Shown: positions 6,610 through 56,035 of the stretch, one piece after another
How positions within the stretch are numbered: the stretch's first letter is position 1
Layout: every line of letters begins with the position of its first letter
DNA from: Sulfurirhabdus autotrophica
GTDB lineage: Bacteria; Pseudomonadota; Gammaproteobacteria; Burkholderiales; SMCO01
Length of the DNA: 64,000 nucleotides
Direction of reading: 5' to 3'
Assembly (NCBI RefSeq): GCF_004346685.1
Contig: NZ_SMCO01000001.1
Location: forward strand, 620,001-684,000
Translations under genes and position numbers: made by a program
The notes under the pieces: model-generated
What the model saw: the letters and a program-made list of their open reading frames with translations, nothing else
Told to the model about the DNA's origin: nothing
The model's database searches: none

Positions 6610-6999
6610 ATGAGTAATTTACCAGAAACTTATCAGCTAAGACTTCTCTCAACCATTATGAGTCGCAGAATTATTGATCAATATAATCAACCTGCAAATT
6701 TCAAATAGCGAAGGTGTACTGCAGAATTAGCACGCCAGTATATTATATCTATTCGGGATACAAGTTTTACGTTTGAGGTTGATAGCGTAAACCAGCTGGT
6801 TGTATACGTTAAACACTCGGAGTACGATACTTATATCAGGTTCAAGGCTGTCATGTTGCCTGTGCAAAGACTGAACAAGCAACAAAGCGAATCAAAAATG
6901 CTTAAACCGGGAAATTCATCAGGCACTGTCCATATAACTGCATACCAGTGCCAGTCAGCTTCTTTTACTCAAAGCGCACAGGGAGTTTGTTATGCATAA
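6610..6999 (+). pseudogene. possible amber-interrupted small gene or remnant
   Basis: One reading frame runs from an ATG at 6610 to a TAA at 6997-6999 with a single in-frame stop, TAG at 6706-6708. The 32 codons before and 96 codons after the TAG are both open and of ordinary protein-like composition (for example SIRDTSFTFEVDSVNQLVVY). There is no clear ribosome site at 6610 and I recognise no family. It may be a decayed gene, or a chance open frame. The rest of the 6357-6991 interval shows nothing else I can name. The frame ends 8 nt inside the following gene. Confidence 0.25.
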
Positions 7000-7387
7000 G
7001 CGCAATCGCATTTTTATCACCATCAGCTTGATCTATGGGATGCTGGGTGGTCTTATCGCACTAACCCGGCTCATTGACCCAAACCTTATACCTGGTAATG
7101 TCCCACGCGCGCACGGGCACATCATGCTGCTTGGATTTTTTCTGATGTTTATTTACGGTGTCGGATTGCACGTTCTTCCTCGTTTCTCAGGGTTTCCACT
7201 GTATTCAGAACGCATGGCTAATTGGCAACTCTATTCCGCCAATGCTGGTCTGCCTATCATGGTCGCTGGATGGCTTGCCATGATAAATTGGTTAGTGTTG
7301 ATTGGTGGAATAGTATCGTATGCTGCAATCGTGATGTTCGGCGTGAATATGCTGCTAACAGTAAAAGCAAAAGGGCCTGGGAGATGA
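6992..7387 (+). CDS. short NnrS-like membrane protein (single repeat)
   Basis: A 131-residue protein with about four transmembrane helices. The central segment, from RAHGHIMLLGFF to GLHVLPRFSG (residues 39-66), has the histidine and LP-x-F/W-x-G pattern of one repeat of the haem/copper NnrS family. It carries His41, His43 and His60, candidate metal or haem ligands. Full NnrS is about 400 residues with some 12 helices, so this is roughly one third. A related segment is found in the gene at 7938, suggesting that the two subunits assemble. AGGGAG precedes the ATG. It heads a tight operon with the lipoyl-carrier gene (6-nt gap). The family assignment is inference from motif pattern. Confidence 0.7.
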   Translation: MHKRNRIFITISLIYGMLGGLIALTRLIDPNLIPGNVPRAHGHIMLLGFFLMFIYGVGLHVLPRFSGFPLYSERMANWQLYSANAGLPIMVAGWLAMINWLVLIGGIVSYAAIVMFGVNMLLTVKAKGPGR

Positions 7388-7393
7388 GTGGTT

Positions 7394-7840
7394 ATGTCTG
7401 AATATCGTGGCTGTGAAATGCCTGAAGATTTATATTATGACCTGGATTATGTATGGGTTAGGCCGGAAGGTGATGGCACATATACCATTGGCCTCACTGA
7501 TCCCTCGCAAACCATGTCCGGAAAAGTGCAATACGTTTGGATTAAAGAAATTGGGACACATCGCGCATGGAAAAAACCCTTGGCGCGAATTGAATCAGGT
7601 AAATGGGCAGGTGGTATTCCTGCGCCCTTTGAAGGGGTAGTTGTAGCGCGAAACCAGAAAGTACTCGATAGCCCCAATCTGCTTAATATTGCACCTTACA
7701 CTGATGCCTGGTTGGTAGTGATGAAACCGGATGATCCAGTAAAAGCATTGGAACATCTTAAAACAGGGAACGAAGCTCAAGAAGCACTGCGTAAATGGAT
7801 TGATCGTTATGATGTGCAATGCATGCGCTGCCAGGACTAG
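7394..7840 (+). CDS. GcvH/LbpA-like lipoyl-carrier protein
   Basis: A 148-residue soluble protein with the fold signature of glycine cleavage H protein. The segment RIESGKWAGGIPAPFEG aligns with the lipoyl-lysine loop (usual ESVK...P..G), placing Lys70 as the lipoylation site. It is followed by VLDSPNLLN and a DAWL motif like H-protein. No gcvT or gcvP is nearby. The N-terminal CEMPEDLYYDLD region looks more like the lipoate-binding proteins (LbpA) of the sHdr sulfur-oxidation system than like true GcvH. The tail ends with a CMRC pair. It sits between two NnrS-like genes, so a redox-carrier role is inferred. The GTG at 7388 is an alternative start. Confidence 0.75.
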   Translation: MSEYRGCEMPEDLYYDLDYVWVRPEGDGTYTIGLTDPSQTMSGKVQYVWIKEIGTHRAWKKPLARIESGKWAGGIPAPFEGVVVARNQKVLDSPNLLNIAPYTDAWLVVMKPDDPVKALEHLKTGNEAQEALRKWIDRYDVQCMRCQD

Positions 7841-7937
7841 TTTCGTATGCATTCCCACTATCTAAAAGCTATTTACCAATAATTTATGCGAGTAAATCAC
7901 TCTCACTCATCGGAAAATAATAATTTGGGGGGACATA

Positions 7938-8642
7938 TTGAAAATTGAACTACTGGTATCTGACTGGTGCCAATCCTGCCATCAAGCAGAAAAAATCTGG
8001 CGCGAAGTGGTTGAAGAAAAGGATGTGGAATTTGCTGTGCTGGATATGTCCCAGCCAGAAGGTAAAGCATTGGTCAGCCAACTTCGCCTGAAAACCATTC
8101 CTGCTCTCGTCATTGATGGTGAGCTCAAGGGAATTGGTGTGCAAAGCTTAGCTGAAGCACGTTCGTTGGTTGAAGCCGCCCCATCAAAAGCCAAATCGGA
8201 TATGCAGCATGCCGGAATTTCCCTTTCCACAGATAATCGATATTTTGCGATAGCATCCATGATCTACCTTATGCTTTCAGGCATGGGGTTAATTATCAAC
8301 GGTGCATTATTGTCCGATGGTCCAGCACGCCCGGTTGCTTTGCATCTCTTCACTGTCGGTTTTGTTCTTTCATTGATTTATGCATTAGGTGCGCACATGC
8401 TGCCACGATTTACTGGCAACCCAATCCAAATGGGCAAATGGCCTTGGGCTCAAATGGGGCTACTACACTTAGGTTTGCTTGGATATGTTGCGGGTTATCT
8501 AGTTGGATTGCATGTCATAATTGTGGCTGGAGGCGTGTTTATCTGGCTTTCTCTGTTCGTTTTCTCCCTGCGCATCTGGCCTGTTTTGTGGCCAAAAGCC
8601 AGTAATAATGATAGTAAAATTATCGATCTTGTTTCTCAATGA
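7938..8642 (+). CDS. thioredoxin-like domain fused to NnrS-like membrane module
   Basis: A 234-residue two-domain protein. Residues 1-82 form a thioredoxin/glutaredoxin-like domain with a CQSC redox motif (Cys11, Cys14), a conserved cis-proline segment KTIPALVIDG and no signal peptide. Residues 100-225 hold about four membrane helices. They contain LHLFTVGF and GAHMLPRFTG, closely matching the product of 6992; His136 and His153 align with His43 and His60 there. The start is TTG at 7938 after a strong GGGGGGA site. The fusion suggests thiol-linked electron transfer to a metal or haem centre in the membrane, coupled with the lipoyl protein upstream. Function is inferred. Confidence 0.72.
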   Translation: MKIELLVSDWCQSCHQAEKIWREVVEEKDVEFAVLDMSQPEGKALVSQLRLKTIPALVIDGELKGIGVQSLAEARSLVEAAPSKAKSDMQHAGISLSTDNRYFAIASMIYLMLSGMGLIINGALLSDGPARPVALHLFTVGFVLSLIYALGAHMLPRFTGNPIQMGKWPWAQMGLLHLGLLGYVAGYLVGLHVIIVAGGVFIWLSLFVFSLRIWPVLWPKASNNDSKIIDLVSQ

Positions 8643-8654
8643 ATGTTCAAGCGT

Positions 8655-9065
8655 CTAATTGGCTTGAGCAGTGACGCCATCTTCTACGTCTTCTATGTAT
8701 ATCTGTGTTTCTGTCCACTCTTCTCTATGCGCCTTAATTACCGACCAGATACCCCATGGCACAACAATAATAAACATAATTGCCCACAATGCCAAAACGC
8801 CGTGCCAGTTACCAAAAAGCTCATAGATTGGTGAACCAAATGGCACCATGAACCCAGCCACCCCATAAAAGCGATAACCGGCCCATCTATTATATTCAGC
8901 CACTTTTTTGTTTGGATGATAGGCTATTGATGCATAAACGAAGATTGAAACTGCAATCCAAATCATGAGCAATGGCGCAATGAGAACGGCAAGTATGCTG
9001 CCAATGTTAAATGCCTGTGACGCAAGGCGCGAATCTTTAGCCAAAATATTTGTTTTACTACCCAC
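8655..9065 (-). CDS. small membrane protein, unknown
   Basis: A 136-residue protein with three likely transmembrane helices (about 20-45, 68-82 and 88-110) and an acidic C-terminal tail. It starts at GTG 9065 with an excellent AGGAGG site. It converges with the thioredoxin-NnrS fusion (12 nt apart at the 3' ends) and diverges from the 9316 gene across the predicted NsrR operator. I do not recognise the family. Position suggests membership of the same nitrosative-stress neighbourhood. Confidence 0.65.
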   Translation of the reverse strand: MGSKTNILAKDSRLASQAFNIGSILAVLIAPLLMIWIAVSIFVYASIAYHPNKKVAEYNRWAGYRFYGVAGFMVPFGSPIYELFGNWHGVLALWAIMFIIVVPWGIWSVIKAHREEWTETQIYIEDVEDGVTAQAN

Positions 9066-9200: not shown

Positions 9201-9315
9201 ATTGGAAGTCAAACAGACAAATTCACTTTCAAGCATACTCGGAGGATTAAATATGCGTTTGTTATCACCCGAATCACCGATAAACATTAAGTCAAAATCC
9301 TGGCAGGAGATAAAC

Positions 9316-9804
9316 ATGTATACACAATGGAAAAAAATTTCGGCAATGCTGTCCGCTACCCTAATGTTAAGTGCGAGTGTGTTGACAGCCTTGGCGCAGG
9401 ATCACAATCATTCAAACAATGATTCACCAGCGCAACTCACGCTCAACCACGGTCAGAAATGGAACAGTGATGCCAACCTGCGCCTGGGAATGAGCCGCAT
9501 CCGCGATGCGCTGAGTTCGGAAATGCTGTCTATACAGTCAGGTAACACAACCGCGGAGCAATACCAAGTTCTGTCAAAGCGAATAAAAGTCCAGATTACT
9601 TTTATGGTGCAGAACTGCAAGCTGGATCGAGAAGCGGATGACATGCTCCATCTCATACTGGGCGACATCATTGCCGGAACGGACAACATGATAGGACAAG
9701 GCAACGATAATGCCCGTAAAGGCGCGAAAAAGATCGCTTACGCCCTGGACAATTATGGTACCTATTTTGCTCATCCTGGCTGGTACGGGGTGAAAGCTCC
9801 TTAG
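9316..9804 (+). CDS. small periplasmic, mainly helical protein
   Basis: A 162-residue protein with a signal peptide (KISAMLSATLMLSASVLTALAQD), so about 140 residues in the periplasm. The mature part looks all-helical, with conserved-looking stretches RLGMSRIRDAL, FMVQNCKLDREADDMLH and a C-terminal FAHPGWYG. The four-helix, cytochrome b562-like appearance is an impression only, and no CXXCH haem site is present. The ATG at 9316 has AGGAGA upstream; longer in-frame starts lack one. It is downstream of the predicted NsrR site and just upstream of a small protein and a hemerythrin-like gene, so a role in NO or metal stress is inferred. Confidence 0.7.
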   Translation: MYTQWKKISAMLSATLMLSASVLTALAQDHNHSNNDSPAQLTLNHGQKWNSDANLRLGMSRIRDALSSEMLSIQSGNTTAEQYQVLSKRIKVQITFMVQNCKLDREADDMLHLILGDIIAGTDNMIGQGNDNARKGAKKIAYALDNYGTYFAHPGWYGVKAP

Positions 9805-10144: not shown

Positions 10145-10465
10145 ATGAAACGAAACCCAACCCTGCAACCTTTATCGCGAGATCACCATGCCGCTCTTTC
10201 TTTGGGAAAGGCTTGTCAGAGCGCAGCTCTATCATGCAATGAAGCAACGGTGAGCCAAACCTACCAGCGTGCCATCACGGCGTTCTCGAAAGAGCTGGAT
10301 CCGCATTTTCAGATTGAAGAGCAGACATTACTGCCACTACTAAACACTGCTGATGGTTTGAACAGAAACGATATCGATGCACTAAACAACTTTGGAAAAT
10401 GTTTAACTGCTCACGTGCGCTTTGAGGAACGTGAACTTTTCCCGGTAATTGAAAGCTTGTTGTAG
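10145..10465 (+). CDS. hemerythrin-like (HHE) cation-binding protein
   Basis: A 106-residue four-helix protein with the di-iron ligand pattern of HHE/hemerythrin domains: His14/His15, HFQIEE (His54, Glu58) and HVRFEE (His90, Glu94). Related proteins (DnrN/YtfE-like or stand-alone HHE) bind O2 or NO, or repair Fe-S clusters after nitrosative damage. The N-terminal ScdA-type domain of YtfE is absent. Its place after an NsrR-type operator and a periplasmic gene supports NO-linked expression. Confidence 0.88.
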   Translation: MKRNPTLQPLSRDHHAALSLGKACQSAALSCNEATVSQTYQRAITAFSKELDPHFQIEEQTLLPLLNTADGLNRNDIDALNNFGKCLTAHVRFEERELFPVIESLL

Positions 10466-15783: not shown

Positions 15784-16440
15784 TTAGATATTTGACCGCC
15801 GAGCCACGCCTATCAAGCCTATCAGGCCTGACCCTAGCAGCCATGCGGCCGCAGGAACAGGGACAGCGGAAACGCTGGGGCTGAAGGTGATGTGGGCAGT
15901 TGCATGCTGTGTCATGCCTAACGAGGGGTCCTGATCAATGCAGCAATCATCCACTACAGCAGTGATACTGTAGGCCTGTCCGGGGGTGAATCCACTGATG
16001 CTGTAACTCGCAATTACGGAATACATGCCAGAGTCTGTGGCCCAATCGTTCGAGTCGAAATTATTGGCCCATTGTGTTGCAGAGGAAGAAAACATTACCT
16101 TGGAAGCATCTACTATGCCCTGATAGCTTAGTATGGGAGCATTGTTACCGCTTACGCTAGCGCCACTGAAGCTGATGGAGAGATTTGGGCTGGTTGAGAG
16201 GGCATTCCAGAATCCGACCGCGCCTGGCCCACTAACGTCACCATTCCATTGCTCGCCGTAAGCGCTCATATATTCATCAATCTTGATCTGAAAATTGCCA
16301 AGACCATCGCTTGAATACAGCGAAACATCAAGCGGTTTGTTATCGAGCATAGTGCTGCTGATATTATTTGCCAGCACACTTTGGGAACCCAATGCAAGAA
16401 GCACCACTAGCATGCCCCCCGGGATTTTTATTAGTCTCAT
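15784..16440 (-). CDS. exported VPxxA/PEP-CTERM-type protein
   Basis: A 218-residue protein with a signal peptide (RLIKIPGGMLVVLLALGSQSVLAN) and a beta-rich body of jelly-roll appearance (Gly/Ser/Asp-rich, DWATDSGMYSVIASYSISG). The C-terminal sorting signal is VPVPAAAWLLGSGLIGLIG followed by ARR. VPxxA variants of the PEP-CTERM signal are handled by exosortases. GGAGG precedes the ATG at 16440, so the longer frame reaching 16614 is not the gene. A sigma-54-like promoter lies about 140 nt upstream. The downstream phosphoesterase gene is in the same direction, 45 nt away, so co-transcription is possible. Confidence 0.82.
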   Translation of the reverse strand: MRLIKIPGGMLVVLLALGSQSVLANNISSTMLDNKPLDVSLYSSDGLGNFQIKIDEYMSAYGEQWNGDVSGPGAVGFWNALSTSPNLSISFSGASVSGNNAPILSYQGIVDASKVMFSSSATQWANNFDSNDWATDSGMYSVIASYSISGFTPGQAYSITAVVDDCCIDQDPSLGMTQHATAHITFSPSVSAVPVPAAAWLLGSGLIGLIGVARRSNI

Positions 16441-17248
16441 TATGACCTCCAATTTATATTTTAAGACTGGCTCCCGGGTTACAATCCGGAAGTCCAGCAA
16501 TTTCGTTTCCGCAATTTGTGATCTGATGCAGTCATCCCGACTCATTGTCAAATAGATGACCTCACCAATACCATCTTTAGCAAAATATGTGCCCAGAAGT
16601 GTTTTGAAAAACACAATTGTATTAAATAAAAAAACGTCATAAATAGAATGGGTTGGCGTTATCGTTTTTTGTAAACAAACTGATAAAAATATTGCCCCGC
16701 TTATTTTGATCGAGGATCGGGTAGGAATGCTGGCGAAAAAAGGGATTCTTTGCCCGAAAAGTAATTTTTTAAAATAAAAAATTGTTGGAACGTCATAATT
16801 TGAGGTGGTTATATTGTCAAAAATGCGACAAGTAGATTGTTTCTATAATGTTTTTAAACTTCATCTGCAAGCCTGGAAGTTTTTTTGATTAGCTTTACCA
16901 ATACGTGGCACAAAGATACCGTCAGGTGCTTTCCAGTTTTGTTTGCCGACGCAGAAGTTAATCAGCACGCAGTGTATAAGTTCGTCGGTAGATCAATGCA
17001 GCCATGATCCTGTGCATTGTGCGGGTTCAACACCTGAAGTGTGTAAGTCAATAAGGAAACCCATTGAATGAAATACCAGCCAAATACAGACACCATCCAG
17101 CCTTGTCCATAGGGCAATTCAATTACAGTTTGGAGCTTGCCAAATAAATTAAAGATTAAGATCACCTTGTCGCTAAATATATTAAGCACCATAAAATCCC
17201 AAAACTCTTATGAATTTCTAGTGACGCGTATGCTCAGGGGGCGACGAT
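16441..17248. other. long intergenic region, no convincing gene
   Basis: An 800-bp stretch with a sigma-54-like promoter at 16579-16595 and otherwise AT-rich. A short minus-strand frame (16962-17192, 76 codons, partly hydrophobic) has only a poor ribosome site and no recognisable family. The motif AACGTCATAA occurs twice (near 16633 and 16790), which may be chance. The leader of the AAA+ ATPase gene lies at the right end. Confidence 0.5.
16579..16595 (-). promoter_or_regulatory. predicted sigma-54 promoter of the VPxxA-CTERM gene
   Basis: On the minus strand, TGGGCAC-N5-TTGCT carries GGCAC and TTGC at the spacing required by RpoN (-24 GG, -12 GC). Transcription would begin near 16568, giving a leader of about 130 nt. 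In Zoogloea a PEP-CTERM gene is controlled by PrsK/PrsR and RpoN, which fits. No prsK or prsR is in the window. Confidence 0.55.
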
Positions 17249-29324: not shown

Positions 29325-30008
29325 ATGACTACCAAATGTCTCACCTCTACATGGGCGTTTTTGATCCTTATGGCAGTATCTAGCCTTGCTGAAGCTAACC
29401 TCATTTATACGGTTACATTGAACACAACCGCCATAGCCGGTGGAAACTATGCCTTGGCATTTCAGCTGACTGATGGATCCGGGACGGGGGATGGCAACAA
29501 TACTGCAACGCTTGGCAATTTTAATTTTGGTGGCGGAAGTGCAGCCGGATGTCCTGCAAACTGTACACTCTTCGGGGATGCTAGCGGTGACGCCACTTCT
29601 TCTGTGATCCTCAATGACAGTACTTTTTTCAATGTATTCACAGAGCGTTTTACCCCTGGCAATAGCCTCTCGTTCATTCTGAATCTGACAACTGTAGCTG
29701 AAACGCCAACACCCGATGCGTTCGCTTTTGGCATTCTGGATAGCGCGGGCAACCCGATTCTGACACTGGATCCACTCGCTTCCAGTTTTTTATCCATTGA
29801 CATCGATTCAACCCAGCCTACCCCATTGTTGTGGGCAACTGACCCCGCCAGCCCTGTGGCGATCAATGCGCCCACACTAAGTACACCTCCCCCAGTAGTA
29901 GGCGTATCCGAGCCGGGCAGTCTGCTATTAATAGCCGCAGGTATGGCTGGTTTGATTTGGTCTGCTCGCAAAAACACACCTTGGCTTGAGACAAATGAGC
30001 CACTCTGA
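29325..30008 (+). CDS. PEP-CTERM protein (NF038129-like)
   Basis: A 227-residue protein with a signal peptide (TSTWAFLILMAVSSLAEAN). The body has the pattern NLIYTVTLNTTAIAGGNYALAF...FGGGSAAGCPANC, which I associate with the NF038129 group of PEP-CTERM proteins. It closes with SEPGSLLLIAAGMAGLIW and a basic end, a sorting tail. A 12-residue extension (TPWLETNEPL) follows the basic cluster. GGAG precedes the ATG. It sits directly behind the larger secreted protein gene. Confidence 0.82.
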   Translation: MTTKCLTSTWAFLILMAVSSLAEANLIYTVTLNTTAIAGGNYALAFQLTDGSGTGDGNNTATLGNFNFGGGSAAGCPANCTLFGDASGDATSSVILNDSTFFNVFTERFTPGNSLSFILNLTTVAETPTPDAFAFGILDSAGNPILTLDPLASSFLSIDIDSTQPTPLLWATDPASPVAINAPTLSTPPPVVGVSEPGSLLLIAAGMAGLIWSARKNTPWLETNEPL

Positions 30009-32175: not shown

Positions 32176-33027
32176 TTAACTGTTGACGAGACTTGAAGGA
32201 TAGTCTTGCACCGTTAATTTATTACATCTTCGCCGACGCACCGCGCTAATTGGAAATACCCCCAGCCCCAGTACAGTCAAAGCGAGGCTATTGGGTTCTG
32301 GGCAGCAATTTTCTTTAAACAACTGACCTGCGGTTACGCTTGCGCCGGTTATATTGAAAGCAACTGAGCCTACGAAGTTTCCAACAGCCGTTATATCAGC
32401 CGAAGACCAGCCCGCGCTATTAAGAAAGTTAACCTCGGAGCTTGGCAGTCCAGTTGCCAATATGTCAGAGAGCATGGCGTTTAGCTGTGGTTGTGTCAGA
32501 GTTAACGAGAAACCAAGGCTATCAAAGGCTTGACTCATCTGGTTGTGTGCCGCTCCCATCGCCGCCCGTGCAGAAACGTAATCAGATTCAGAGCCTCCGG
32601 ATGCCATTGCCGCAGTCATAATATTCAGCTTATCAATATATAGATTTGTTGAATCTATCAATGCAGTCTCACCCGGGGTCGCACCAACTATAGACAAGTG
32701 TTGGTAATTTGCAGTGTTCATTGAGGCCAGCAAGGGCAGCTCGCCTGGCTCTGGTGATGATGCAAACGACGGTTGAGGGAGTGGAGGAGGACTGCCGAAT
32801 AGAGTTTTGTATGTATCTGTAAGTAAGCAGCCAACTTGGCCGACCCCAGCTACTACTCCAATCACTTGGCCAACTCCTGTGGGAGTCGCCGCAGCACCTA
32901 TGCCAACTAACGTAGAGCCAACACCACCCCACGAAATCCAACTAGCAGAAGTTGGAGATGATATCCCTAGGTTAAGCACTGCTATTAGAGCAATTAATAC
33001 ATAACTTTTGTTACGCGATGTTTTCAT
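32176..33027 (-). CDS. PEP-CTERM-like exported protein
   Basis: A 283-residue protein with a signal peptide (SYVLIALIAVLNLGISSPTSAS). A glycine-rich hydrophobic segment (TLVGIGAAATPTGVGQVIGVV) and a helical middle follow. The C-terminal CPEPNSLALTVLGLGVFPIS followed by RRRR is a PEP-CTERM-type tail, here with 15 further residues. AGGAGTAAGG lies upstream of the ATG. I do not recognise the main domain. Upstream is the palindrome-rich gap 33028-33388. Confidence 0.72.
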   Translation of the reverse strand: MKTSRNKSYVLIALIAVLNLGISSPTSASWISWGGVGSTLVGIGAAATPTGVGQVIGVVAGVGQVGCLLTDTYKTLFGSPPPLPQPSFASSPEPGELPLLASMNTANYQHLSIVGATPGETALIDSTNLYIDKLNIMTAAMASGGSESDYVSARAAMGAAHNQMSQAFDSLGFSLTLTQPQLNAMLSDILATGLPSSEVNFLNSAGWSSADITAVGNFVGSVAFNITGASVTAGQLFKENCCPEPNSLALTVLGLGVFPISAVRRRRCNKLTVQDYPSSLVNS

Positions 33028-43526: not shown

Positions 43527-46241
43527 TTATTTGATCGCATACTTAAACTGCCCCTGCTTATTTGCGGTCACCTTGATTTTTGAAATGCTGGCACCCTCAG
43601 CCATTTTGGCCAAAACGGTCTCTGCAATCTCCGGCAATAAAGTACCGTTCAGAATATTATCGACATTTCTGGCCCCTGAATCCACTTCGGTGCAACGCGA
43701 AAGCACCGCGTCAACCAGTGCATCATCAAATGCAAAATCCGCCTTATGATTCGTTGCGATTCGCTTTTTAATTTTACCGAGTTTAAGCTCAATAATATTC
43801 GCAAGTACGTCATCCGCAATCGGGTAAAAAGGGATCACTTTCAATCGACCAAGAAAAGCCGGTTTAAAGGCTTTCATTAATTGTGGCCTGATCAATGCTT
43901 CCAGCTCTTCTGGAGCCGGAAGTTCACTGGCATCTTTATTCAGACAGGCCTGCATCATCTGGCTGGAAGCTACATTACTGGTCAAAATAATGATCGCGTT
44001 TTTGAAATCGATCTCACGCCCTTCAGCATCATCCAGCACCCCCTTATCAAATACCTGAAAAAACAACTCCAGTACATCAGGGTGAGCCTTTTCCACTTCA
44101 TCCAATAACACTACGCTGTAAGGATTACGGCGCACGGCTTCCGTTAAAACACCGCCCTCTCCATAGCCAACATATCCGGGAGGAGAACCTTTCAGCCCTG
44201 AAACACTGTGCGCTTCCTGATATTCGCTCATGTTAATCGTGATCAGCTTGCGCTCGCCACCATACAGCACGTCAGCCAACGCCAAAGCCGTTTCTGTCTT
44301 GCCAATACCTGAAGAGCCAACAAACAAAAATACGCCCTTAGGCTTATTAGGATCATCAAGATTGGCGCGTGAAGTACGAACACGCTGCGCCACAGCTTCA
44401 ATGGCATGAGATTGTCCAAGCACTCTTTCCTGCAACAAATCATTCAGATTCAATACAGTCTTGATTTCATCCTTAACCATCTTACCTAAAGGAATACCTG
44501 TCCAACTGGCTACAATCTCCGCAACAATATGGCCATCCACCTGCACAGGAACCATAGGCAACTCACCTTGAAGTGTTCCCAACTCTTCAAGCAAATTTTC
44601 TAGTTCCTGGCTGGGTTTAGCCGCTTTTACCGACTTCTTTTTTGTATTTTCAATCTTGACTGCTTCATTTATCACGCTATTCTTGCCTGCCAATGCTTCC
44701 AAAGCAGCACGTGCTGCCATAATTTTTTCAGTGAGCGCCTTTTCCATCTCCCAGCGCGCTAAATGTCCATTGAGCTCATTGGTCGATATCTCACGCAACG
44801 CCTGCAACTCTTTCAGCCTTGTCACATGGTGCCCACCTGCAGTTTTCTCACGCTCAAGGGATGCCATTTCAGCGCCCGTTCGTTCCAGAAGCTTGGTAAT
44901 ATTTTCGATAAGTGCAGGCGTAGCATTCTGACCCAAAGCGACTTTGGCACAAGCTGTATCCAATACACTAATTGCTTTATCCGGAAGCTGACGTCCACTA
45001 ATGTAGCGATGCGACAAACGCACAGCTTCAGTGATTGCTTCGTCAAACACTCTGACATTAAAGTGTTTTTCCATCAAGGGTGCCATACCACGCAACATGG
45101 CGCAGGCAAGCTCTTCACTGGGTTCTTCAATTTTAACCACCTGAAAACGACGCGCCAGTGCAGCATCTTTTTCAAAGTACTTTTTGTATTCACTCCAGGT
45201 CGTGGCAGCTATCGTGCGTAATTCACCGCGCGCTAATGCCGGTTTGAGTAAATTCGCCGCATCATTCTGGCCAGCCTGACCGCCTGCGCCGATCATGGTA
45301 TGGGCTTCGTCTATAAACAAAATTATTGCATGAGGACTTTTCTTTACCTCATCAATCACATTTTTAAGACGATTCTCAAATTCCCCTTTCACACTGGCAC
45401 CAGCTTGCAGCAACCCCATGTCCAGCGTATGCACTTCCACACCTTGTAAAACTTCGGGTACATCTTTTTGCGCAATCCTTAACGCCAAACCTTCAACCAC
45501 TGCCGTTTTACCTACGCCCGCTTCACCAGTCAGAATAGGATTGTTTTGCCGGCGTCGCATCAGAATATCAATTGCCTGCCTGATTTCCATATCACGTCCA
45601 ATGACGGGATCAACCTTACCTTCACGCGCATGTTGCGTAAGATTGGTAGTGAACTGATCCAAAGCTGGCGTTTTGGAAATCACGCTTTTACCAGTCAATT
45701 CATCTTCCGCACCATTCTCAGCCTCACTTTGCGCTGCTCCCTGACGCTGCATTCTTCCTTCCTGCGAGCCTGCGGTTAATTTATCCAGATTATGTTTAAG
45801 CTCATCAAGCTTGATTTTGACAAACAACTTTGAACCACGATATGCAAGCTGCACCAAATCTGGCTCAGTTAACAGCGCCAACAATAGGTGGCTGCTTCGA
45901 ATATTTCCTTCAGGATTAGCTTGTGTATCCAGCGATGCAATCAACCAGGCATGCTCGAACAATTTAGGTAGATGGGGTGAAAAAACCGGTGTACGCGAAT
46001 TGCCAGTTTTAAAACGTCCGATTTCAGACAGTAAATCCGCTTCCAGGCTAACCAGACTGATCCCGCACTTATGCGCAATCATCACAAAGTCACTCTTGGG
46101 CTGCTCAAGCAAAGCCAGAAAAAGATGTTCTATATCAACTTCATATTGCCCACGGTCTACACAAATATTTGCAGCACGTTGTGCTGCCAGCCGTGTAGTT
46201 TCATTCAGCTTACTGAACAATGTTTTAAGATTAATACTCAT
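43527..46241 (-). CDS. tssH: T6SS disaggregase ClpV (TssH)
   Basis: A 904-residue two-ring AAA+ ATPase that disassembles contracted TssB/TssC sheaths for reuse. There is an N-domain (about 1-160), AAA1 with GEAGVGKTAVVEG and the lid motif CAMLRGMAPLMEKHF, a middle coiled region, and AAA2 with GSSGIGKTETALALADVLYGG. The ERTGAEMASLEREKTAGG insertion is typical of ClpV rather than ClpB. It is the last gene of the minus-strand cluster, 27 nt after tssG. Confidence 0.95.
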   Translation of the reverse strand: MSINLKTLFSKLNETTRLAAQRAANICVDRGQYEVDIEHLFLALLEQPKSDFVMIAHKCGISLVSLEADLLSEIGRFKTGNSRTPVFSPHLPKLFEHAWLIASLDTQANPEGNIRSSHLLLALLTEPDLVQLAYRGSKLFVKIKLDELKHNLDKLTAGSQEGRMQRQGAAQSEAENGAEDELTGKSVISKTPALDQFTTNLTQHAREGKVDPVIGRDMEIRQAIDILMRRRQNNPILTGEAGVGKTAVVEGLALRIAQKDVPEVLQGVEVHTLDMGLLQAGASVKGEFENRLKNVIDEVKKSPHAIILFIDEAHTMIGAGGQAGQNDAANLLKPALARGELRTIAATTWSEYKKYFEKDAALARRFQVVKIEEPSEELACAMLRGMAPLMEKHFNVRVFDEAITEAVRLSHRYISGRQLPDKAISVLDTACAKVALGQNATPALIENITKLLERTGAEMASLEREKTAGGHHVTRLKELQALREISTNELNGHLARWEMEKALTEKIMAARAALEALAGKNSVINEAVKIENTKKKSVKAAKPSQELENLLEELGTLQGELPMVPVQVDGHIVAEIVASWTGIPLGKMVKDEIKTVLNLNDLLQERVLGQSHAIEAVAQRVRTSRANLDDPNKPKGVFLFVGSSGIGKTETALALADVLYGGERKLITINMSEYQEAHSVSGLKGSPPGYVGYGEGGVLTEAVRRNPYSVVLLDEVEKAHPDVLELFFQVFDKGVLDDAEGREIDFKNAIIILTSNVASSQMMQACLNKDASELPAPEELEALIRPQLMKAFKPAFLGRLKVIPFYPIADDVLANIIELKLGKIKKRIATNHKADFAFDDALVDAVLSRCTEVDSGARNVDNILNGTLLPEIAETVLAKMAEGASISKIKVTANKQGQFKYAIK

Positions 46242-46268
46242 TACTACATTTTCCTGTCTAAATTATCA

Positions 46269-47351
46269 TTAAAGCGCATGAATTTCGTACCGAACATCAG
46301 CACGATCTTCCAACTCCGTTTTTGTCGCTAAAAACGTATCCCACCCTAACTGCCCGCCTATGCGATCTGAAGCCAAACTTGCACCATGTACATCTTCTGC
46401 ACGCAGAATAAGTTGCACCTCATACTCCAGACACAAACTGGTGAACATCGTCAGCATCTTTTCCAGAGAAATAGCAGCTTTTCCACCAGGTAAAAACGAA
46501 ATAAAATCATTCTTGCATAGTGGGCCGATAGTCATACGCAAACGTAAATCTCTTTGCCACACGCGCGCGCCAACCATTGCAGCAGAACCAAGGATGGCAT
46601 TGTTCCCACCCAGCATTGTTTGCTGCTCATGAGGCACTGCATACCAGCAACCAATAAACTGTTTAATCACAACAGGCACAGCAAAATACTCCCCAAGAAC
46701 GCGTTGAATGTAAGCGGCGGAAGGAGGACGACTCTGCAAGGCTGCGCTATAAAACCCGATCGTTTCGTCTAAAACGCCTTGCCCATTTTCATTCATTCTT
46801 TCCTGCAAGGAAGAATGACCCAGTCCAGCCAGTGATAGCAGCAACGGTAAAAACCGATCCTTCCCATCTAATTCATACTTGAATTCAAGCCGATATTTAC
46901 GCCATGCTTCATAAAACAGGGCAACTGAACGATTTGAAAATGTATCCAGAAATGCTTTGGGGCTTTCGTCTTTTTCGTATAACAGGTGCCCTGCTATACG
47001 TTCCGTATAATGACTGGGAAGCGTACCATTACCACCTAAAAACCCCATAAACGCGGGAGTAAGATGGATATGTTTCAATTCGTCACTTTGAAGTGCTTCC
47101 AACAATGCCTGATCAGTTTCAAGCAACTCTTTCGCCTCAGCAGCCAACGACTCAATTTCGCTAGGTGGAAAATTCAAAGAAACTGAATTTTTGAAACGCA
47201 AATATTCGGCTACTGCACTTTCGTGAGATACGCCATTTCGCTTGAGCCACAATTCAAGCATCCTGACCGCCTGAAAAAACTGGAAGCGATAAGGTTCATC
47301 CAGCAAACGCTGGATTACACTAGGCTCAAATCTCCGCTTCGTGGCAAGCAT
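46269..47351 (-). CDS. tssG: T6SS baseplate protein TssG
   Basis: A 360-residue wedge component that clamps two TssF copies in the baseplate. It has the family opening RLLDEPYRFQFFQAVRMLELWL, the LRFKNSVSLNFPPSEI segment and the AFMGFLGGNGTLPSHYTE motif. The start lies 37 nt inside tssF, so translation is coupled. Confidence 0.95.
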   Translation of the reverse strand: MLATKRRFEPSVIQRLLDEPYRFQFFQAVRMLELWLKRNGVSHESAVAEYLRFKNSVSLNFPPSEIESLAAEAKELLETDQALLEALQSDELKHIHLTPAFMGFLGGNGTLPSHYTERIAGHLLYEKDESPKAFLDTFSNRSVALFYEAWRKYRLEFKYELDGKDRFLPLLLSLAGLGHSSLQERMNENGQGVLDETIGFYSAALQSRPPSAAYIQRVLGEYFAVPVVIKQFIGCWYAVPHEQQTMLGGNNAILGSAAMVGARVWQRDLRLRMTIGPLCKNDFISFLPGGKAAISLEKMLTMFTSLCLEYEVQLILRAEDVHGASLASDRIGGQLGWDTFLATKTELEDRADVRYEIHAL

Positions 47352-49165
47352 CGTAACAACTCCTCCCCTGTACGTTTTGACGCAATCACCAATTGGGTAA
47401 AACTGTTGGCGTTCACATACAAGCCCAAAAACCGCTCCACAATTTGCGCGAAAGCATGGACGCCACTACCCACAAAACTTTCCTCATCTATCGTCATGCG
47501 CACTTCAATACCACGGACCATGCAGGCGAATGGATTACCCGGCAACCAGGTTGTTGCCGACTTATGTTCTATACCCACTACTCCACCAATCTGCCGCTGT
47601 GAAATCGCAGAACGGGGTAAATCATATAAGCGCAAAATTTCCAGAAATGCCTCCAACCCGCCTTTAGCAAGAGACAAATGGTTCAAGGAGAGATGAGAAA
47701 TCAATCGCCAATGTGCACCGGGGCCACGTTCAAAGCGATATGGTTCAGAGGGTTTACGCAAAAAGCTGATCGCACGCACAATTGAGCCACCTTCCAGAAA
47801 CAAATCGCCGCCTGGGAGTCCATAAGTCAGAGAAGCTGGTAAATCACGGTTACAACAAGTCAATTCAAGGCTAAGGGTGTCAGTTTCAACAGCAGCAGGA
47901 TCAAAATCAATATCCACTATTGAAATTTCAGTTTCATATCCGGGACTTTTTTCTGCAACGAGTTCATCACGCCGCATAACCCAATAATGTCCTTTTCTTT
48001 CACGCGATTCGCCATGCCGCAAAGAATAAAATGGACGAAACTCAGTAACTGATTCGCCTTGTGGTGTTTGGCGAACCAATTTCACCGAATCAATACTATG
48101 CACCTCATAGGCAAAAGCACGACGTGAATCTGCAACGACAGGGTAATGCGCAGAAGTGTGCGTCAAGCGAATGGGATCACCTCGTTGTTTGAACAGATTA
48201 ATTACTGGCGTACAGCCTAGCAATACGTTATTGGCAGACAAAGTCCCTAGCATCCGTGCGGTATTCGAATCAGCACGAAGTCCACTCAACACCAGATGCA
48301 ACACAAACTCCTTGCAACCCTCAGGTAAAATATTAGAAATCGACTCCAGATCAATAGCAAAGAAATTAAATTTTTCAGGAAAAGCAAAATACTCGGTCAG
48401 CAAACGGTAAGCTGGATGTGACCGGGCAGAAAAAGGAATCAGTGATTCATCCTCATCGAACCCAACAGCACTAATCGGGGCTTTGTTCAGCGCTATCCAT
48501 TTCCGGGACTGCGGAATCTCAACATACGCTTTGACCGTTCGCATAAAAAGCGTATCTCTTAAAGCAGCACAAAATGAAGGTTCGCCATCAATAAAAACGC
48601 GCAATGACTTCATACCAAGTTGCGCCAACCCTACTTGCTCAGTCGTTGTTACAATCGAGAGACTGATCTTGGAAGTTGCATTCTGTGGCAGCACAACCGA
48701 CTCAGGCGGTTCGATAATCGGATCAAATTTAGCGTGGGACAAGCGCAATGGAGCGACAGTTACGTCATATGCCGTTTTAAATTTACAAGCTACACCTTTA
48801 ACAGGACGAGTAGTCAGTTCCGTACCACGTTGAATTTGCGTTGCCACAGTCAGTTGAGAAGCGGCAGCGCTATAATCCATGCGCGCAATGGAACAGGATG
48901 GAAATGGTCTAAGATAGTGCGGATAAAGCACGTCAAGCAGTGCTTCAGTGAACTCTGGGTAATCATCGTCTAGTCGCTTGGACGTACGCGCATTGAGTAA
49001 AGCAAAAGATTGAATCATTCGCTCGATATGGGGGTCTTCACAAACCTCACCCACCATAAGCAAACCACCAGCTATTTTTGGGTAGCGCTCGGAAAACTCT
49101 CTTGAATACCGTCTTAAAAATCCAAGTTCACGTTCATAATAAGGAAGCAATTCGTCCAAAATCAC
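47315..49165 (-). CDS. tssF: T6SS baseplate protein TssF
   Basis: A 616-residue baseplate wedge protein. It shows the classical N-terminal LLPYYERELGFLRRYSREFSERYP, then VCEDPHIERMIQSFALLNAR and DDDYPEFTEALLDVLYPHYLRP. Translation starts at GTG 49165 with GGGAGA upstream, overlapping the tssE stop as GTGA. Length is normal for the family. Confidence 0.95.
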   Translation of the reverse strand: MILDELLPYYERELGFLRRYSREFSERYPKIAGGLLMVGEVCEDPHIERMIQSFALLNARTSKRLDDDYPEFTEALLDVLYPHYLRPFPSCSIARMDYSAAASQLTVATQIQRGTELTTRPVKGVACKFKTAYDVTVAPLRLSHAKFDPIIEPPESVVLPQNATSKISLSIVTTTEQVGLAQLGMKSLRVFIDGEPSFCAALRDTLFMRTVKAYVEIPQSRKWIALNKAPISAVGFDEDESLIPFSARSHPAYRLLTEYFAFPEKFNFFAIDLESISNILPEGCKEFVLHLVLSGLRADSNTARMLGTLSANNVLLGCTPVINLFKQRGDPIRLTHTSAHYPVVADSRRAFAYEVHSIDSVKLVRQTPQGESVTEFRPFYSLRHGESRERKGHYWVMRRDELVAEKSPGYETEISIVDIDFDPAAVETDTLSLELTCCNRDLPASLTYGLPGGDLFLEGGSIVRAISFLRKPSEPYRFERGPGAHWRLISHLSLNHLSLAKGGLEAFLEILRLYDLPRSAISQRQIGGVVGIEHKSATTWLPGNPFACMVRGIEVRMTIDEESFVGSGVHAFAQIVERFLGLYVNANSFTQLVIASKRTGEELLRCLPRSGDLSLV

Positions 49166-49653
49166 TCTCCCTTACGTGCAGTACGGCGCGTTTTACTAAT
49201 AGAATACTGCAGAGTGGATGGTTGAAGAACCGCATCAAAACTCACAGGTTCTTTTGCAGGATGAACAACCAGCATCGCAGAAATGGCAAAATTCAGCCGA
49301 TTTATTGAGCCTTCCTGTAATTCAAGAGAGGCATTGACATTCCGCAAGCGAGGCTCGTGCTGTGATATCGCTTTTTCCAGACAACGACAGATATAAGCTC
49401 TGTCATCTGTGCTTGCAAGGCTCAACCCTGCAAAGTCATTTAATCCATAGGAAACAATTGATTTGCTGCATTCAGGATACGGCTTCAAGAGATCTTCGTG
49501 TATCACAGTACGTGTATTCAACAAGGCTTCCAGATCACGTGCAACGGTATCTTTAAGGTCTTCCATAGACAACCGTGAAACAGTACTGAATGTTGATGAG
49601 TAACCATTACCACCCATTAACCTATCAAACAGACCCGGAGCAAAACCCTTCAT
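49162..49653 (-). CDS. tssE: T6SS baseplate protein TssE (gp25-like)
   Basis: A 163-residue gp25-like wedge protein that nucleates the sheath. It contains LFDRLMGG near the start, LKDTVARDLEALLNTR and SIVSYGLNDFAGLSL, in the order of the family. The ATG at 49653 has AGGTG upstream; an in-frame TTG 18 nt earlier is less likely. An intrinsic terminator lies just upstream, between it and hcp. Confidence 0.92.
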   Translation of the reverse strand: MKGFAPGLFDRLMGGNGYSSTFSTVSRLSMEDLKDTVARDLEALLNTRTVIHEDLLKPYPECSKSIVSYGLNDFAGLSLASTDDRAYICRCLEKAISQHEPRLRNVNASLELQEGSINRLNFAISAMLVVHPAKEPVSFDAVLQPSTLQYSISKTRRTARKGE

Positions 49654-49673
49654 ATATAACACCTGATTCAAAC

Positions 49674-49707
49674 AAAAAAAGAACCGCGGAATTTAAACTC
49701 CGCGGTT
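49674..49707 (-). terminator. intrinsic terminator between hcp and tssE
   Basis: Perfect 9-bp arms AACCGCGGA (49682-49690) and TCCGCGGTT (49699-49707) have an 8-nt loop and a seven-T run on the minus strand (a T run also follows on the plus strand). It lies 20 nt after the hcp stop. It should stop most transcripts after hcp, letting only a fraction read into tssE-F-G-H. Confidence 0.88.
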
Positions 49708-49726
49708 TTTTTAACACAATTAAAAC

Positions 49727-50218
49727 TTAAACAGTCTTATTAGTACTCAGATCCCAACCACCAGAAGTATTACCACCAGAACCACCACCAATCTTCTGTT
49801 GAGTATATTTCCATTTAACCTGAGAGTACTTCAAGCTCAGGCTTTCACGCAGAATTTCGCCTTCTGCAATGCTTGGCGCAACATCAGAAATCAGCACATT
49901 GACCAATTCAATTTCAAAGTACTTGATACGGTCACCTTTTCCATCAGCACGAAGAAACTCGATCTTGGCTTTAGGAATGGTTTTACCGGATGAGCAGTTC
50001 TGCAACAGCAAAGGTGTCGCCAAATCAGCCAACTTGTTGATCACGATTTCTTTATGCTCACAACGTTCTGCTGTATGGCCACCACCAGTTGATGAAGTAG
50101 CTGATTTTGGCTGAAGCACTTCCCAAGCAACAGACTTGCACTCAATCCAGTCTTTATGAGAACTATCGGTGGATTCGCCTTTAATGCCTTCAATTTGCAG
50201 ATATACATCTATTGCCAT
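49727..50218 (-). CDS. hcp: T6SS inner tube protein Hcp (TssD)
   Basis: A 163-residue protein forming the expelled hexameric tube. The Hcp pattern is present: DVYLQIEGIKGESTDSSHKDWIEC at the start, HKEIVINKLADLATP in the middle and KYSQVKWKYTQQ near the end. It is encoded between tssC and the terminator, consistent with the high expression Hcp needs. Confidence 0.96.
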   Translation of the reverse strand: MAIDVYLQIEGIKGESTDSSHKDWIECKSVAWEVLQPKSATSSTGGGHTAERCEHKEIVINKLADLATPLLLQNCSSGKTIPKAKIEFLRADGKGDRIKYFEIELVNVLISDVAPSIAEGEILRESLSLKYSQVKWKYTQQKIGGGSGGNTSGGWDLSTNKTV

Positions 50219-50244
50219 TTTTCACATTCCTTTTGAAAATAAAA

Positions 50245-51735
50245 TTAAGATTTGGTCGATTGTGGAAGCTCCGCGACCAGACGGAGTGATACAGAAAGTT
50301 CATCCAACTGAAAATGCGGACGTAAAAACGATACGGCTCTATAAACACCTGGCCGCCCCGGAACTTCAGAAACTTGAACAGAGGCTTCACGTAATGGAAA
50401 CTGTGCTTTAGCTTCCTGGCTGGCGTTATCATCCAACAGCACATATTGCGAAAGCCACCTGTTAAGAAAATCCTCAACATTGGAAGCAGCCGCAAAACTG
50501 CCGATCTTGTCGCGCATCATCGCTTTCATATAATGAGCAATGCGTGAAACAGCAAATATATATTGAAGCTGGGCAGATAACACAGCATTCGCATTTGCAG
50601 AATCAGTATTGTATTTTTTTGACTTCTGAGCAGATTGCGCACCAAAAAATGCCGCGTAATCAGTATTTTTGCAATGCACCAATGAGATAAAACCCAGGTC
50701 GCTTAATTCTTTTTCACGACGGTCAGTGATAGCTATTTCAGTTGGACATTTAAGCGCTACCTCACCTTCGTCTGTCTTAAAGGTATGAGTCGGCAGATCC
50801 TCTACCAAACCGCCACCTTCCACACCACGAATTGCCGCACACCAGCCAAAATCTTCAAAAGCCTTGGTCAACTTGGTACCAAATGCATAGGCTGCGTTAC
50901 ACCACAAATATTTACTATGGTCACTACCATCCACATCTTCTACAAAATTGAAACCTTCAACGGTAGTACCATCCTTTGGATTGAATGGCAAACGGCCCAA
51001 AAAGCGCGGTAAAGTTAATCCTACATAACGGGAGTCTTCGGATTCACGAAAGGATTTCCATTTTGCGTATTCGACAGTATCAAATATTTTAGATAAATCT
51101 CTTGGCTTACCCAATTCACTATATGTTTCAAGGCCAAACAACTCAGGAGAAGCGGCAGAAATAAATGGCGCATGTGAGGCAGCTGCAATATGAGACATTT
51201 GCTCAATAAAATACATATCCTCTGGTTGGCGAGTAATCTCGAAATCGCCAATCAATGCACCGAATGGTGCGCCACCGAAAGTACCAAATTCTTCTTCATA
51301 GATTTTTTTGAACATCGCGCTCTGATCAAAGTCCAGTGCTGACTGGAAGTCCTTAACCAATTCTTTTTTTGTTGCGTTCAAAACCTTGATTTTTAGGTTT
51401 GGGCTTGTTGATGTGTTTTTCATCAAATAATGCAAACCAGTCCAACTACCTTCTAGTTTCTGAAATTCTGGGGCATGCATAACTGCACTGACTTGATCAG
51501 AAATCAAACGATCCAGCTCGGCTAAACGAGCATCAATTGTTGCTGAAAGGTTTTCAGAAACAACAACCGTGCCAGCCATTACCTGATTTACCAGCTCAGA
51601 AATAATGTCTTTTGCACGCTCATGTTCAACTGTAGATTTAGCTACTTTGCTTTGTTCAATAATTTGATCAAGTAATGAGGCATCTTGAGTTACAGATGTC
51701 GCAGAAGAAGTTGAATTAAGCTGTGCGGTCATCAT
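50245..51735 (-). CDS. tssC: T6SS sheath protein TssC (VipB)
   Basis: A 496-residue large sheath subunit. The N-terminal helix region contacting TssB is followed by the core LEGSWTGLHYLMKNT, IGDFEI and FLGRLPF segments and a C-terminal VSFLRPHFQLDELSVSLRLV. AAGGAG lies before two adjacent ATG codons (51735 and 51732). Its start overlaps tssB by 20 nt. Confidence 0.96.
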   Translation of the reverse strand: MMTAQLNSTSSATSVTQDASLLDQIIEQSKVAKSTVEHERAKDIISELVNQVMAGTVVVSENLSATIDARLAELDRLISDQVSAVMHAPEFQKLEGSWTGLHYLMKNTSTSPNLKIKVLNATKKELVKDFQSALDFDQSAMFKKIYEEEFGTFGGAPFGALIGDFEITRQPEDMYFIEQMSHIAAASHAPFISAASPELFGLETYSELGKPRDLSKIFDTVEYAKWKSFRESEDSRYVGLTLPRFLGRLPFNPKDGTTVEGFNFVEDVDGSDHSKYLWCNAAYAFGTKLTKAFEDFGWCAAIRGVEGGGLVEDLPTHTFKTDEGEVALKCPTEIAITDRREKELSDLGFISLVHCKNTDYAAFFGAQSAQKSKKYNTDSANANAVLSAQLQYIFAVSRIAHYMKAMMRDKIGSFAAASNVEDFLNRWLSQYVLLDDNASQEAKAQFPLREASVQVSEVPGRPGVYRAVSFLRPHFQLDELSVSLRLVAELPQSTKS

Positions 51736-52243
51736 CTTCTCCTTGATTTGCAGTTTGTTTACTCAGGTTTGCGAGCTTCTCTGTATTTGTAAGCACACTA
51801 TTCAATATATCTTCCAGCTTTTCGTTTCCTGCCAACTTGTTACGCAAATCAGCTAATTTTGTGCGAGCTTCAAGCAGTTTTTGTAATGGCTCAACTTGCT
51901 GTACAACTGACTCAGGGCGAAAATCTTCCATAGACTTGAATTTCAGTTCAACTGCAAATTCGCCACCTTTATCACTTAAATGATTAGGCACGCGAAATAC
52001 CGCTTTCGGTTCAACTGCCTTCAATACTTCATCAAAATTGTCATTATCAATATTAATGAACTTCCTATCTTTCAAACGCGCTTGAGCCACATCAGAATTG
52101 CCGCTGAAATCACCAACAACCCCCATTACAAAGGGAAGTTCTTTACTTTCGATTGCATCACCAATTTCAACGTCATAGGTCATCTGCACCCGGGGAGGGC
52201 GAATTTTTTGTAAACGCTTTTGAATACTTTCTTTTTTTGCCAT
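51716..52243 (-). CDS. tssB: T6SS sheath protein TssB (VipA)
   Basis: A 175-residue small sheath subunit. It shows KIRPPRVQMTYDVEIG, the motif ELPFVMGVVGDFSGN and FKSMEDFRPESVVQQVEPL in family order. GAGGTTC precedes the ATG at 52243; the ATG 12 nt upstream has no ribosome site. It is the first structural gene of the minus-strand cluster, with the lipoprotein gene upstream. Confidence 0.96.
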   Translation of the reverse strand: MAKKESIQKRLQKIRPPRVQMTYDVEIGDAIESKELPFVMGVVGDFSGNSDVAQARLKDRKFINIDNDNFDEVLKAVEPKAVFRVPNHLSDKGGEFAVELKFKSMEDFRPESVVQQVEPLQKLLEARTKLADLRNKLAGNEKLEDILNSVLTNTEKLANLSKQTANQGEDDDRTA

Positions 52244-52317
52244 ATAGAACCTCATGCCATAAAAATTTTGACCAAGCTGCTAATAATTACAGCCAAGTCA
52301 ATTATCAGAAAAAAAAC

Positions 52318-52944: not shown

Positions 52945-53142
52945 TAATAAATTTCTCCATCACCACATCAATACAATAGCATATTCTACGGTATGTTTAT
53001 AAAAATATCTAGTACAACGTACTTAAATCAAATTAAGCTTGACCTAATATATGTTGAAATAATAAAATCATCAAAAATTATTTTATGTCATATTTGTTTG
53101 ACATGGTTATTTGCTTTTTTTGGAAAACATTACAACCCATTC

Positions 53143-53775: not shown

Positions 53776-53820
53776 ACTGCGAAATATGCACCTTAGAAAT
53801 TACTCAGTGAGACTAGTAAC

Positions 53821-55940: not shown

Positions 55941-56035
55941 GTTATGCCACTATCTGGTTCTATTTTCACTTTTGAAAAAAATGTCGATAATGGCATTTGT
56001 TTCAAGCGCGCTTCAACGTTTCGGATTCATGTCAC

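Follow-up and report, generated by a model that had tools for sequence, protein, structure and literature searches.

The subject of this analysis is a unit of three genes, labelled A, B and C, in the genome of Sulfurirhabdus autotrophica (assembly GCF_004346685.1). The window, i.e. the whole stretch of DNA analysed, comprises 64,000 nt of contig NZ_SMCO01000001.1 (positions 620,001-684,000 of the forward strand), and coordinates are window positions unless a locus is named (Table 1). The three open reading frames (ORFs) lie at 6992-8642, where the original prediction for this DNA had located them. The ORF of B opens at GTG 7388 (range 7388-7840); a start at ATG 7394 is likelier because the homologues begin at that ATG. 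Gene C starts with TTG, with a GGGGGG stretch upstream. In the window, 6 bp separate A from the ATG of B, and 97 bp lie between B and C. Of the 13 loci measured, 11 have A and B spaced by -4 to 11 bp; the spacing of B and C is -4 to 17 bp in eight and up to 391 bp in the remainder.

Table 1 Genes of the A-B-C unit and an associated gene in the window
Feature	Coordinates	Strand	Description
Gene A	6992..7387	+	131 aa; four-helix membrane protein, by sequence one haem-copper-oxidase/NnrS-type repeat; H41, H43 (HxH), H60, LPRFSG
Gene B	7394..7840	+	LbpA-type lipoate-binding protein, 148 aa from ATG; ESGKW with predicted lipoyl Lys (K70), N-terminal Cys, C-terminal CMRC
Gene C	7938..8642	+	234 aa; thioredoxin domain (about residues 1-84, CQSC) and four-helix module homologous to A; H136, H153, H177, LPRFTG
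Hemerythrin (HHE) protein	10145..10465	+	1.5 kb downstream of A-B-C; loose associate

Homologues were sought in samples of the order (200 genomes) and the class (274 genomes) and, with the profile of C, in a phylum scan of 398 genomes. The S. autotrophica genome is in both the order and the class set and was counted once in pooled totals. The sampled genomes (Gnnn) and loci (Lnnn) span many families yet are related, hence no probability was attached to co-occurrence. The counts are based on tblastn and genome searches; ORF calling was rough in GC-rich DNA, and some antisense frames were picked. Thirty-two loci were read; L036 and part of G046 are one contig and were counted once. According to the original prediction, the lack of a conserved neighbourhood in other genomes would have spoken against it; the neighbourhood proved to be conserved. 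A and C were found together in all 26 loci having either of them; B was present in 28 of the 32, all three genes in 22, and B without A-C in six. Fifteen order genomes, S. autotrophica included, matched C at the threshold of 1e-5. G008 and G153 were dropped as C carriers, the matches being three-repeat proteins of 431-449 aa. A stands beside C in each of the remaining 13 genomes, with B between them in nine. Full C with A was found in 10 class genomes, again counting S. autotrophica, and all 10 have B. Named relatives carrying the unit are Sulfuriferula multivorans TTN (L034), a Sideroxydans lithotrophicus assembly and two assemblies named only Betaproteobacteria and Proteobacteria. The phylum scan returned only S. 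autotrophica itself and one thioredoxin in G515, a genome which has B, a free thioredoxin and hemerythrin and lies outside the 23 B genomes counted below.

The membrane modules of A and C are homologous to each other (hhalign 99.3 %, E about 1e-20) and have about four hydrophobic segments each, which bears out the prediction of two short membrane proteins with one repeat apiece. The histidine and LPRF-x-G motif noted at that time is not a chance pattern, since H41, H43, H60 and P63-R64-F65 of A and H136, H153, H177 and P156-R157-F158 of C were kept in 26 of 26 homologues of each protein. The membrane modules of these homologues have no conserved cysteine. In Pfam, A matched COX1 (PF00115) at 2e-6 over profile positions 314-398 with 27.4 bits, below the cut-off of 34.8, and its relatives in G099 (38.1 bits) and G690 (36 bits including neighbours in frame) exceeded the cut-off. 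The COX1 model at 1e-5 found A in 11 of the 13 A-holding genomes searched, within profile positions 309-402 in 10 of these. A gave no NnrS match in Pfam and no match in NCBIfam. C matched NnrS (PF05940) at 2e-4 over positions 256-368 of 371 with 21.3 bits, below the cut-off of 28. Neither protein has what defines an NnrS, namely a score over the cut-off and one chain spanning the model; likewise the window's A scores below the PF00115 cut-off, and its module has about four hydrophobic segments, not twelve helices with the full haem/CuB ligand set.

Comparison of profiles gave, for A, probabilities of 89 % with CcoN (2e-6), 62 % with aa3-type COX1 and 79 % with the first third of NnrS, and, for C, 77 % with the last third of NnrS, 20 % with CcoN (weak) and 2.2 % with aa3-type COX1 (negligible). 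The HGH of A, corresponding to the HxH of helix X, aligned residue by residue with HVH of CcoN, HFH of aa3 oxidases and HAH of NnrS. When the columns were shuffled in blocks of ten, none of 60 trials reached the observed score in six comparisons with the COX1, CcoN and NnrS groups, one of which (C with aa3-type COX1) was the negligible match itself. On these comparisons, the membrane modules of A and C are to be regarded as single repeats of the haem-copper-oxidase/NnrS superfamily, with a likeness to NnrS that is real but weak. The unit had been described as a split NnrS; the likeness it pointed to stands, and the label is too narrow because A fits CcoN about as well as NnrS and because full-length NnrS is absent from 6 of the 22 A-C genomes. 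It is present in the other 16, and in S. autotrophica it lies on another contig; a strict tie of A-C to NnrS was ruled out by this count. A shares with subunit I of the haem-copper oxidases (COX1, CcoN, NorB) an alignable helix X region in which the HxH is in register; the differences are that each chain of A and C holds a single four-helix repeat where the oxidases have three, that most oxidase metal ligands are absent, and that C bears a thioredoxin domain. NnrS, in turn, is one chain of about 400 aa, whereas A and C are short. The charge pattern suggests that both termini of the modules and the thioredoxin domain are cytoplasmic. With that topology the HxH of A and H136 of C would face outwards, and H60 of A, like H153 and H177 of C, inwards. 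The invariant histidines make it fairly probable that the modules bind haem.

The thioredoxin-like fusion with CQSC was confirmed by a Thioredoxin_3 match in C (Pfam, 1.5e-9) and by fold, with VIA-align Z scores of 9.8-11.0 over about residues 1-84. Both cysteines of the CxxC (C11 and C14) and P55 were kept in all 25 C homologues having the domain. Five class genomes with B and without A-C (G599, G718, G737, G772 and G826) encode a free thioredoxin resembling the start of C (1e-24 to 1e-29). Its gene adjoins B in G772, G718 and G826, and lies within about 3-4 kb of another copy of sHdrB1, a gene of the sHdr sulfur-oxidation pathway, in G599 and G737.

Between A and C a lipoyl carrier had been predicted, and B indeed matched Pfam GCV_H at 1.7e-32 and carries the lipoyl-lysine motif ES[GS]KW in 28 of 28 proteins (ESGKW in the window). 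What that prediction missed is the identity of B, a paralogue of the lipoate-binding protein LbpA which, in the class sample, is confined to genomes with sHdr. A passage of Cao et al. (2018, PMC6067878) describes LbpA as having two cysteines without counterpart in the glycine-cleavage H protein (GcvH), one near each terminus. In the S. autotrophica genome, the profile of B found B itself (4.6e-91), two proteins of contig C20 (6.4e-43 and 2.1e-35) and GcvH (3.3e-18). In a tree of 96 sequences, built on few columns and with a long-branch warning, the 28 B proteins formed one clade (99/95) that was sister to 22 LbpA1 (100/93), and all LbpA-type sequences including B stood apart from nine GcvH (100/100). 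An N-terminal cysteine and a C-terminal CxRC were both present in 28 of 28 B proteins. None of the 20 LbpA1 rows long enough to show the position has the second cysteine of CxRC, and the other 2 of the 22 stop short of it. The N-terminal cysteine was seen in 2 of 9 GcvH rows, in both cases ahead of the presumed start Met; rows of LbpA2-like proteins and GcvH stop at the end of the profile match, and C-terminal cysteine counts for them were left unused. An assignment of B as GcvH itself was ruled out by the tree, the absence of the ESVKAA motif and an NCBIfam gcvH score of 90.8 bits against a cut-off of 115.85. Judged from its sequence, B forms a third branch of LbpA that has a dithiol motif of its own, since it lies in the LbpA clade and combines the N-terminal cysteine with a private CxRC; it is thus a new branch of a known kind of protein. 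B shares with LbpA1 and LbpA2 of the sHdr system (Cao et al. 2018, PMC6067878) the ESGKW lipoyl lysine, the cysteines near both ends and the place inside the LbpA clade, and differs from them in its separate branch, its CxRC end and its position between two membrane-module genes. A further difference is that, in S. autotrophica, B is on contig C1 and not beside the hdr-like cluster, which is on contig C20; position in or beside such a cluster was the basis on which LbpA proteins were gathered and does not characterise the protein itself.

The gene order of the C20 cluster is hdrC1-hdrB1-hdrA-hyp-hdrC2-hdrB2-lbpA-dsrE-lbpA-lipS1-lpl-lipT-lipS2, where three names are backed by HdrB- or HdrC-family matches below the NCBIfam cut-offs and the rest by order and resemblance to the description of Cao et al. 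With hdr-like genes together with lbpA and lip genes on C20, outside the window, S. autotrophica itself is counted as an sHdr genome. Among the 274 class genomes, sHdrB1 was found in 18 and B in 15, all of them among those 18; no B was found in the 256 class genomes without sHdrB1, and three genomes (G676, G715 and G732) have sHdrB1 without B. In the order sample sHdrB1 was present in 19 of 200 genomes and in 9 of 9 genomes with B; here the search for B was restricted to genomes having C or sHdrB1, which leaves the class figure as the sole even-handed test of co-occurrence. In the pooled samples B went with sHdrB1 in 23 of 23 genomes, and the A-C pair in 20 of 22. An sHdrB1 gene lies just downstream of B in G599. 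These facts suggest that the A-B-C unit is, with high probability, linked to sHdr in some form. G599 also has an extra sHdrB1 copy (L208 2188-4133) beside a regulator resembling the Rrf2/NsrR type by eye, with hemerythrin, a thioredoxin and, by eye, a lipoamide-dehydrogenase-like gene some kb away.

Upstream of A, a box of the form TTGATN4ATCAA with at most one mismatch was found 57-122 bp before the gene in 18 of 25 loci, and three further loci have it in the same place with two mismatches (TTGAC...GTCAA). Resampled upstream sequences equalled the score of the 18 in 0-4.5 % of 200 trials each. The box loci include close relatives, and the scan omitted one locus (L060/L095) in which a contig end truncates A. 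Where B occurs without A, a box with at most one mismatch lies upstream in three of six loci. According to PMC1274295, TTGATnnnnATCAA is the FNR box used for DNR, and nnrS and dnrN are among the genes under nitrogen-oxide-responsive regulators. A Crp-family gene lies within 4 kb of the unit in at least 18 of the 32 loci and a hemerythrin (HHE) gene in at least 16, both being lower bounds because some loci are cut by contig ends. From these sequence features, most A-B-C copies look to be under low-oxygen or nitric oxide (NO) control, a statement that does not extend to the window's copy. In the window the box pattern occurs once with one mismatch, not before A, with 4.3 occurrences expected.

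For the role of the unit, our preferred reading, held tentatively and at a little under even chances, is that A-B-C would serve the cytoplasmic sHdr as an electron partner in the membrane, with electrons passing from dihydrolipoyl to thioredoxin, haem and quinone; haem binding and the direction of flow are both our inference. B would be lipoylated by the sLpl(AB)-LipS1/S2 machinery, as LbpA1 and LbpA2 are. During sHdr oxidation of protein-bound sulfane sulfur to sulfite, C would receive electrons from dihydrolipoyl-B at the CxxC of its thioredoxin domain, in the cytoplasm, and the CMRC dithiol of B may take part in this transfer. A and C would pair in the membrane and bind b-type haem via their invariant histidines, on the periplasmic side with H43 of A and H136 of C, like the low-spin haem of oxidases, and on the cytoplasmic side with H60 of A and H153 and H177 of C. 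The electrons would then leave through haem to quinone, above all at low oxygen. In a passage of Cao et al. it is proposed that sHdr may reduce the lipoyl group of LbpA and that dihydrolipoyl dehydrogenase then passes the electrons to NAD (PMC6067878). An LbpA-like carrier, a membrane-tied thioredoxin domain and histidines on both sides of the membrane offer an alternative exit, to quinone via haem. The genes narJ and narI, which precede A in G091, and the DsrC gene after C in G033, which is followed by what by eye are narK and narGHJ (narI confirmed), fit a role in electron exit. The proposal in its fullest form, that A-B-C is the missing membrane electron exit of bacterial sHdr, in which a third LbpA would be oxidised via thioredoxin by a two-haem wire of single-repeat oxidase relatives, is doubtful at present. 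VKOR and DsbB are four-helix thiol:quinone proteins, and HdrE, DsrM and QmoC are membrane haem partners of heterodisulfide reductases. A-B-C resembles these systems only in its proposed task, the joining of a thiol or dithiol partner to an exit for electrons in the membrane, and differs from them in that the membrane helices of A and C have no conserved cysteine.

Several observations weigh against the unit being an electron partner of sHdr. The A-C pair was found in 11 of 19 sHdr genomes of the order and 10 of 18 of the class; not every sHdr genome carries A-C, which is therefore not essential to sHdr. The two A-C genomes without sHdrB1, G014 and G061, lack B as well, and G032 and G077 have A-C and sHdrB1 without B; no B-type gene was found in any of these four order genomes. 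The C protein of G061, moreover, is without the thioredoxin domain. Free thioredoxins resembling the start of C occur in seven class genomes without B or sHdrB1, the one in G653, beside a Crp-family gene, being as close as any (4.1e-30) and those in the other six matching at 6e-16 to 8e-10. A need of B for the LbpA-specific ligase could by itself account for its co-occurrence with sHdr. The window's copy has neither an adjacent Crp-family gene nor an FNR/DNR box before A, and such a box was not found before A in L039, L049 and L058 either. As for structure, the profile of A matched NorB alone in the PDB, at a non-significant E of 0.084, and in the better stretch (NorB 30-115, 16.2 bits) the histidines are out of register. 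A weaker stretch (8.1 bits) places the HGH of A on H347-G-H349 of NorB, of which H347 and H349 are presumably the ligands of haem b3 and haem b. AlphaFold models built from five sequences each for A and C reached middling pLDDT values of 69 and 64 and were uninformative on haem. Foldseek with the A model gave nothing below E 0.98, its rows being mixed helical bundles with NOR at rank 5 and cbb3 at ranks 16 and 23, and the 50 VIA-align rows were all helical bundles, mostly soluble, including some designed haem binders and no oxidase. With the C model only the thioredoxin part was informative. For the membrane part, these search outcomes do not count against an oxidase-like fold.

In G014 and G061 (L135 and L136), an LbpA-type gene stands beside genes resembling TusA, DsrE and lip genes, with no sHdrB1 match. 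Lipoate-binding proteins have apparently been kept there without sHdr.

The FNR/DNR-type box in 18 of 25 loci and the frequent Crp-family and hemerythrin neighbours would also suit a different role, in which A-C is an NO-binding or NO-reducing haem unit of nitrosative defence; we consider this rather unlikely. Lipoate and thioredoxin are known to take NO off thiols, and lipoyl-B and the thioredoxin domain might accordingly supply electrons or strip NO from protein thiols, guarding the Fe-S-rich sHdr enzymes. A globin gene beside B in G599 and the HGH common to A and NorB point the same way. However, the box and the neighbours tell when the unit is made, not its task, and the tie between B and sHdr is far tighter. 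A strict tie of A-C to nitrate reductase or NorB was ruled out: NarI (E 1e-20) was found in 7 and a NorB relative (E 1e-50) in 8 of the 22 A-C genomes and neither in 10, nitrite reductases being outside the search. Helices VI and VII supply the ligands of the binuclear site in oxidases and NorB, and these have no evident counterpart in the modules.

It is also conceivable, and we rate it as unlikely, that the unit handles or senses sulfane sulfur at the membrane. B would then carry a persulfide on its lipoyl or CMRC thiols, C would receive, release or sense it, and the histidines would bind a metal of structural or sensory use. This would agree with the role as carrier of sulfur substrate proposed for LbpA, whose C-terminal cysteine is likened to that of SoxY in a passage of Cao et al. 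(PMC6067878), and with the DsrC gene adjoining C in G033. Near B, at about 2 kb in G737 and 5 kb in G599, there is a gene of the metallo-beta-lactamase fold. We take these genes to be like persulfide dioxygenases. Nevertheless, the invariant histidines of both modules and the oxidase-type HxH point to haem, and the lack of a conserved cysteine leaves no thiol path for sulfur through the membrane modules. An accidental linkage, in which B follows sHdr only because it depends on the lipoyl ligase specific to LbpA and A-C, as a haem protein of general anaerobic redox balance, has no connection with either, would account for the four order genomes with A-C and without B (two also without sHdrB1), the six loci with B alone and the free C-like thioredoxins in genomes without B or sHdrB1, but it is quite improbable given the tight gaps within the unit, the same kind of thioredoxin kept in B genomes without A-C (adjoining B in three) and the LbpA-type gene beside lip genes (by resemblance) in both A-C genomes without sHdrB1.

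In G715, which has sHdrB1 and no B, only one module was found, outside the 32 loci read, as a single chain of about 130 residues without a thioredoxin domain (L211 4174-4578, minus strand), located between a Crp-family gene and a hemerythrin gene. Its start has an A-type HGH and a histidine before PRF, and its second half has the TM3 histidine of the C type and the WPVLW end of C. By its residues, it looks like a one-module form in which the A and C ligand sets are combined, as though a single module had once served both functions. In the three-repeat proteins of 431-449 aa (L017 559-1908 and L016 661-1956), successive repeats each resemble one A/C module, so that they are possible three-repeat cousins of A and C. 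Small genes near L017 resemble those of DUF2249 proteins by eye.

Beside the unit in the window lie two genes for small proteins (8655-9065, minus strand, and 9202-9804, plus strand) without a Pfam or NCBIfam match over the cut-off. One product is probably membrane-bound and the other exported and helical, and no similar genes were found beside the other A-B-C copies compared. Elsewhere in the window, a gene run at 43527-58894 resembles by eye a type VI secretion cluster (ClpV-, TssG-, TssF-, Hcp-, TssC-, TssB-, TssK- and VgrG-like), and proteins with PEP-CTERM-like tails (by eye) are encoded at 67-1047, 15784-16614, 29325-30008 and 32176-33027.

No description of single-repeat oxidase relatives, one of them fused to thioredoxin, encoded together with an LbpA was found in our searches of the open-licence literature, where NnrS together with lipoyl returned only an unrelated review. 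The sHdr system is a widespread sulfur-burning pathway, and the conserved unit gives the question of where its electrons go concrete genes and proteins. Relatives of the haem-copper oxidases with one repeat would, in addition, bear on the origin of the twelve-helix fold. If the proposal of a membrane electron exit is true, A and C would be present-day survivors of the one-repeat form from which the oxidases and NnrS may have arisen by triplication, and the G715 hybrid module would show that form at its simplest.

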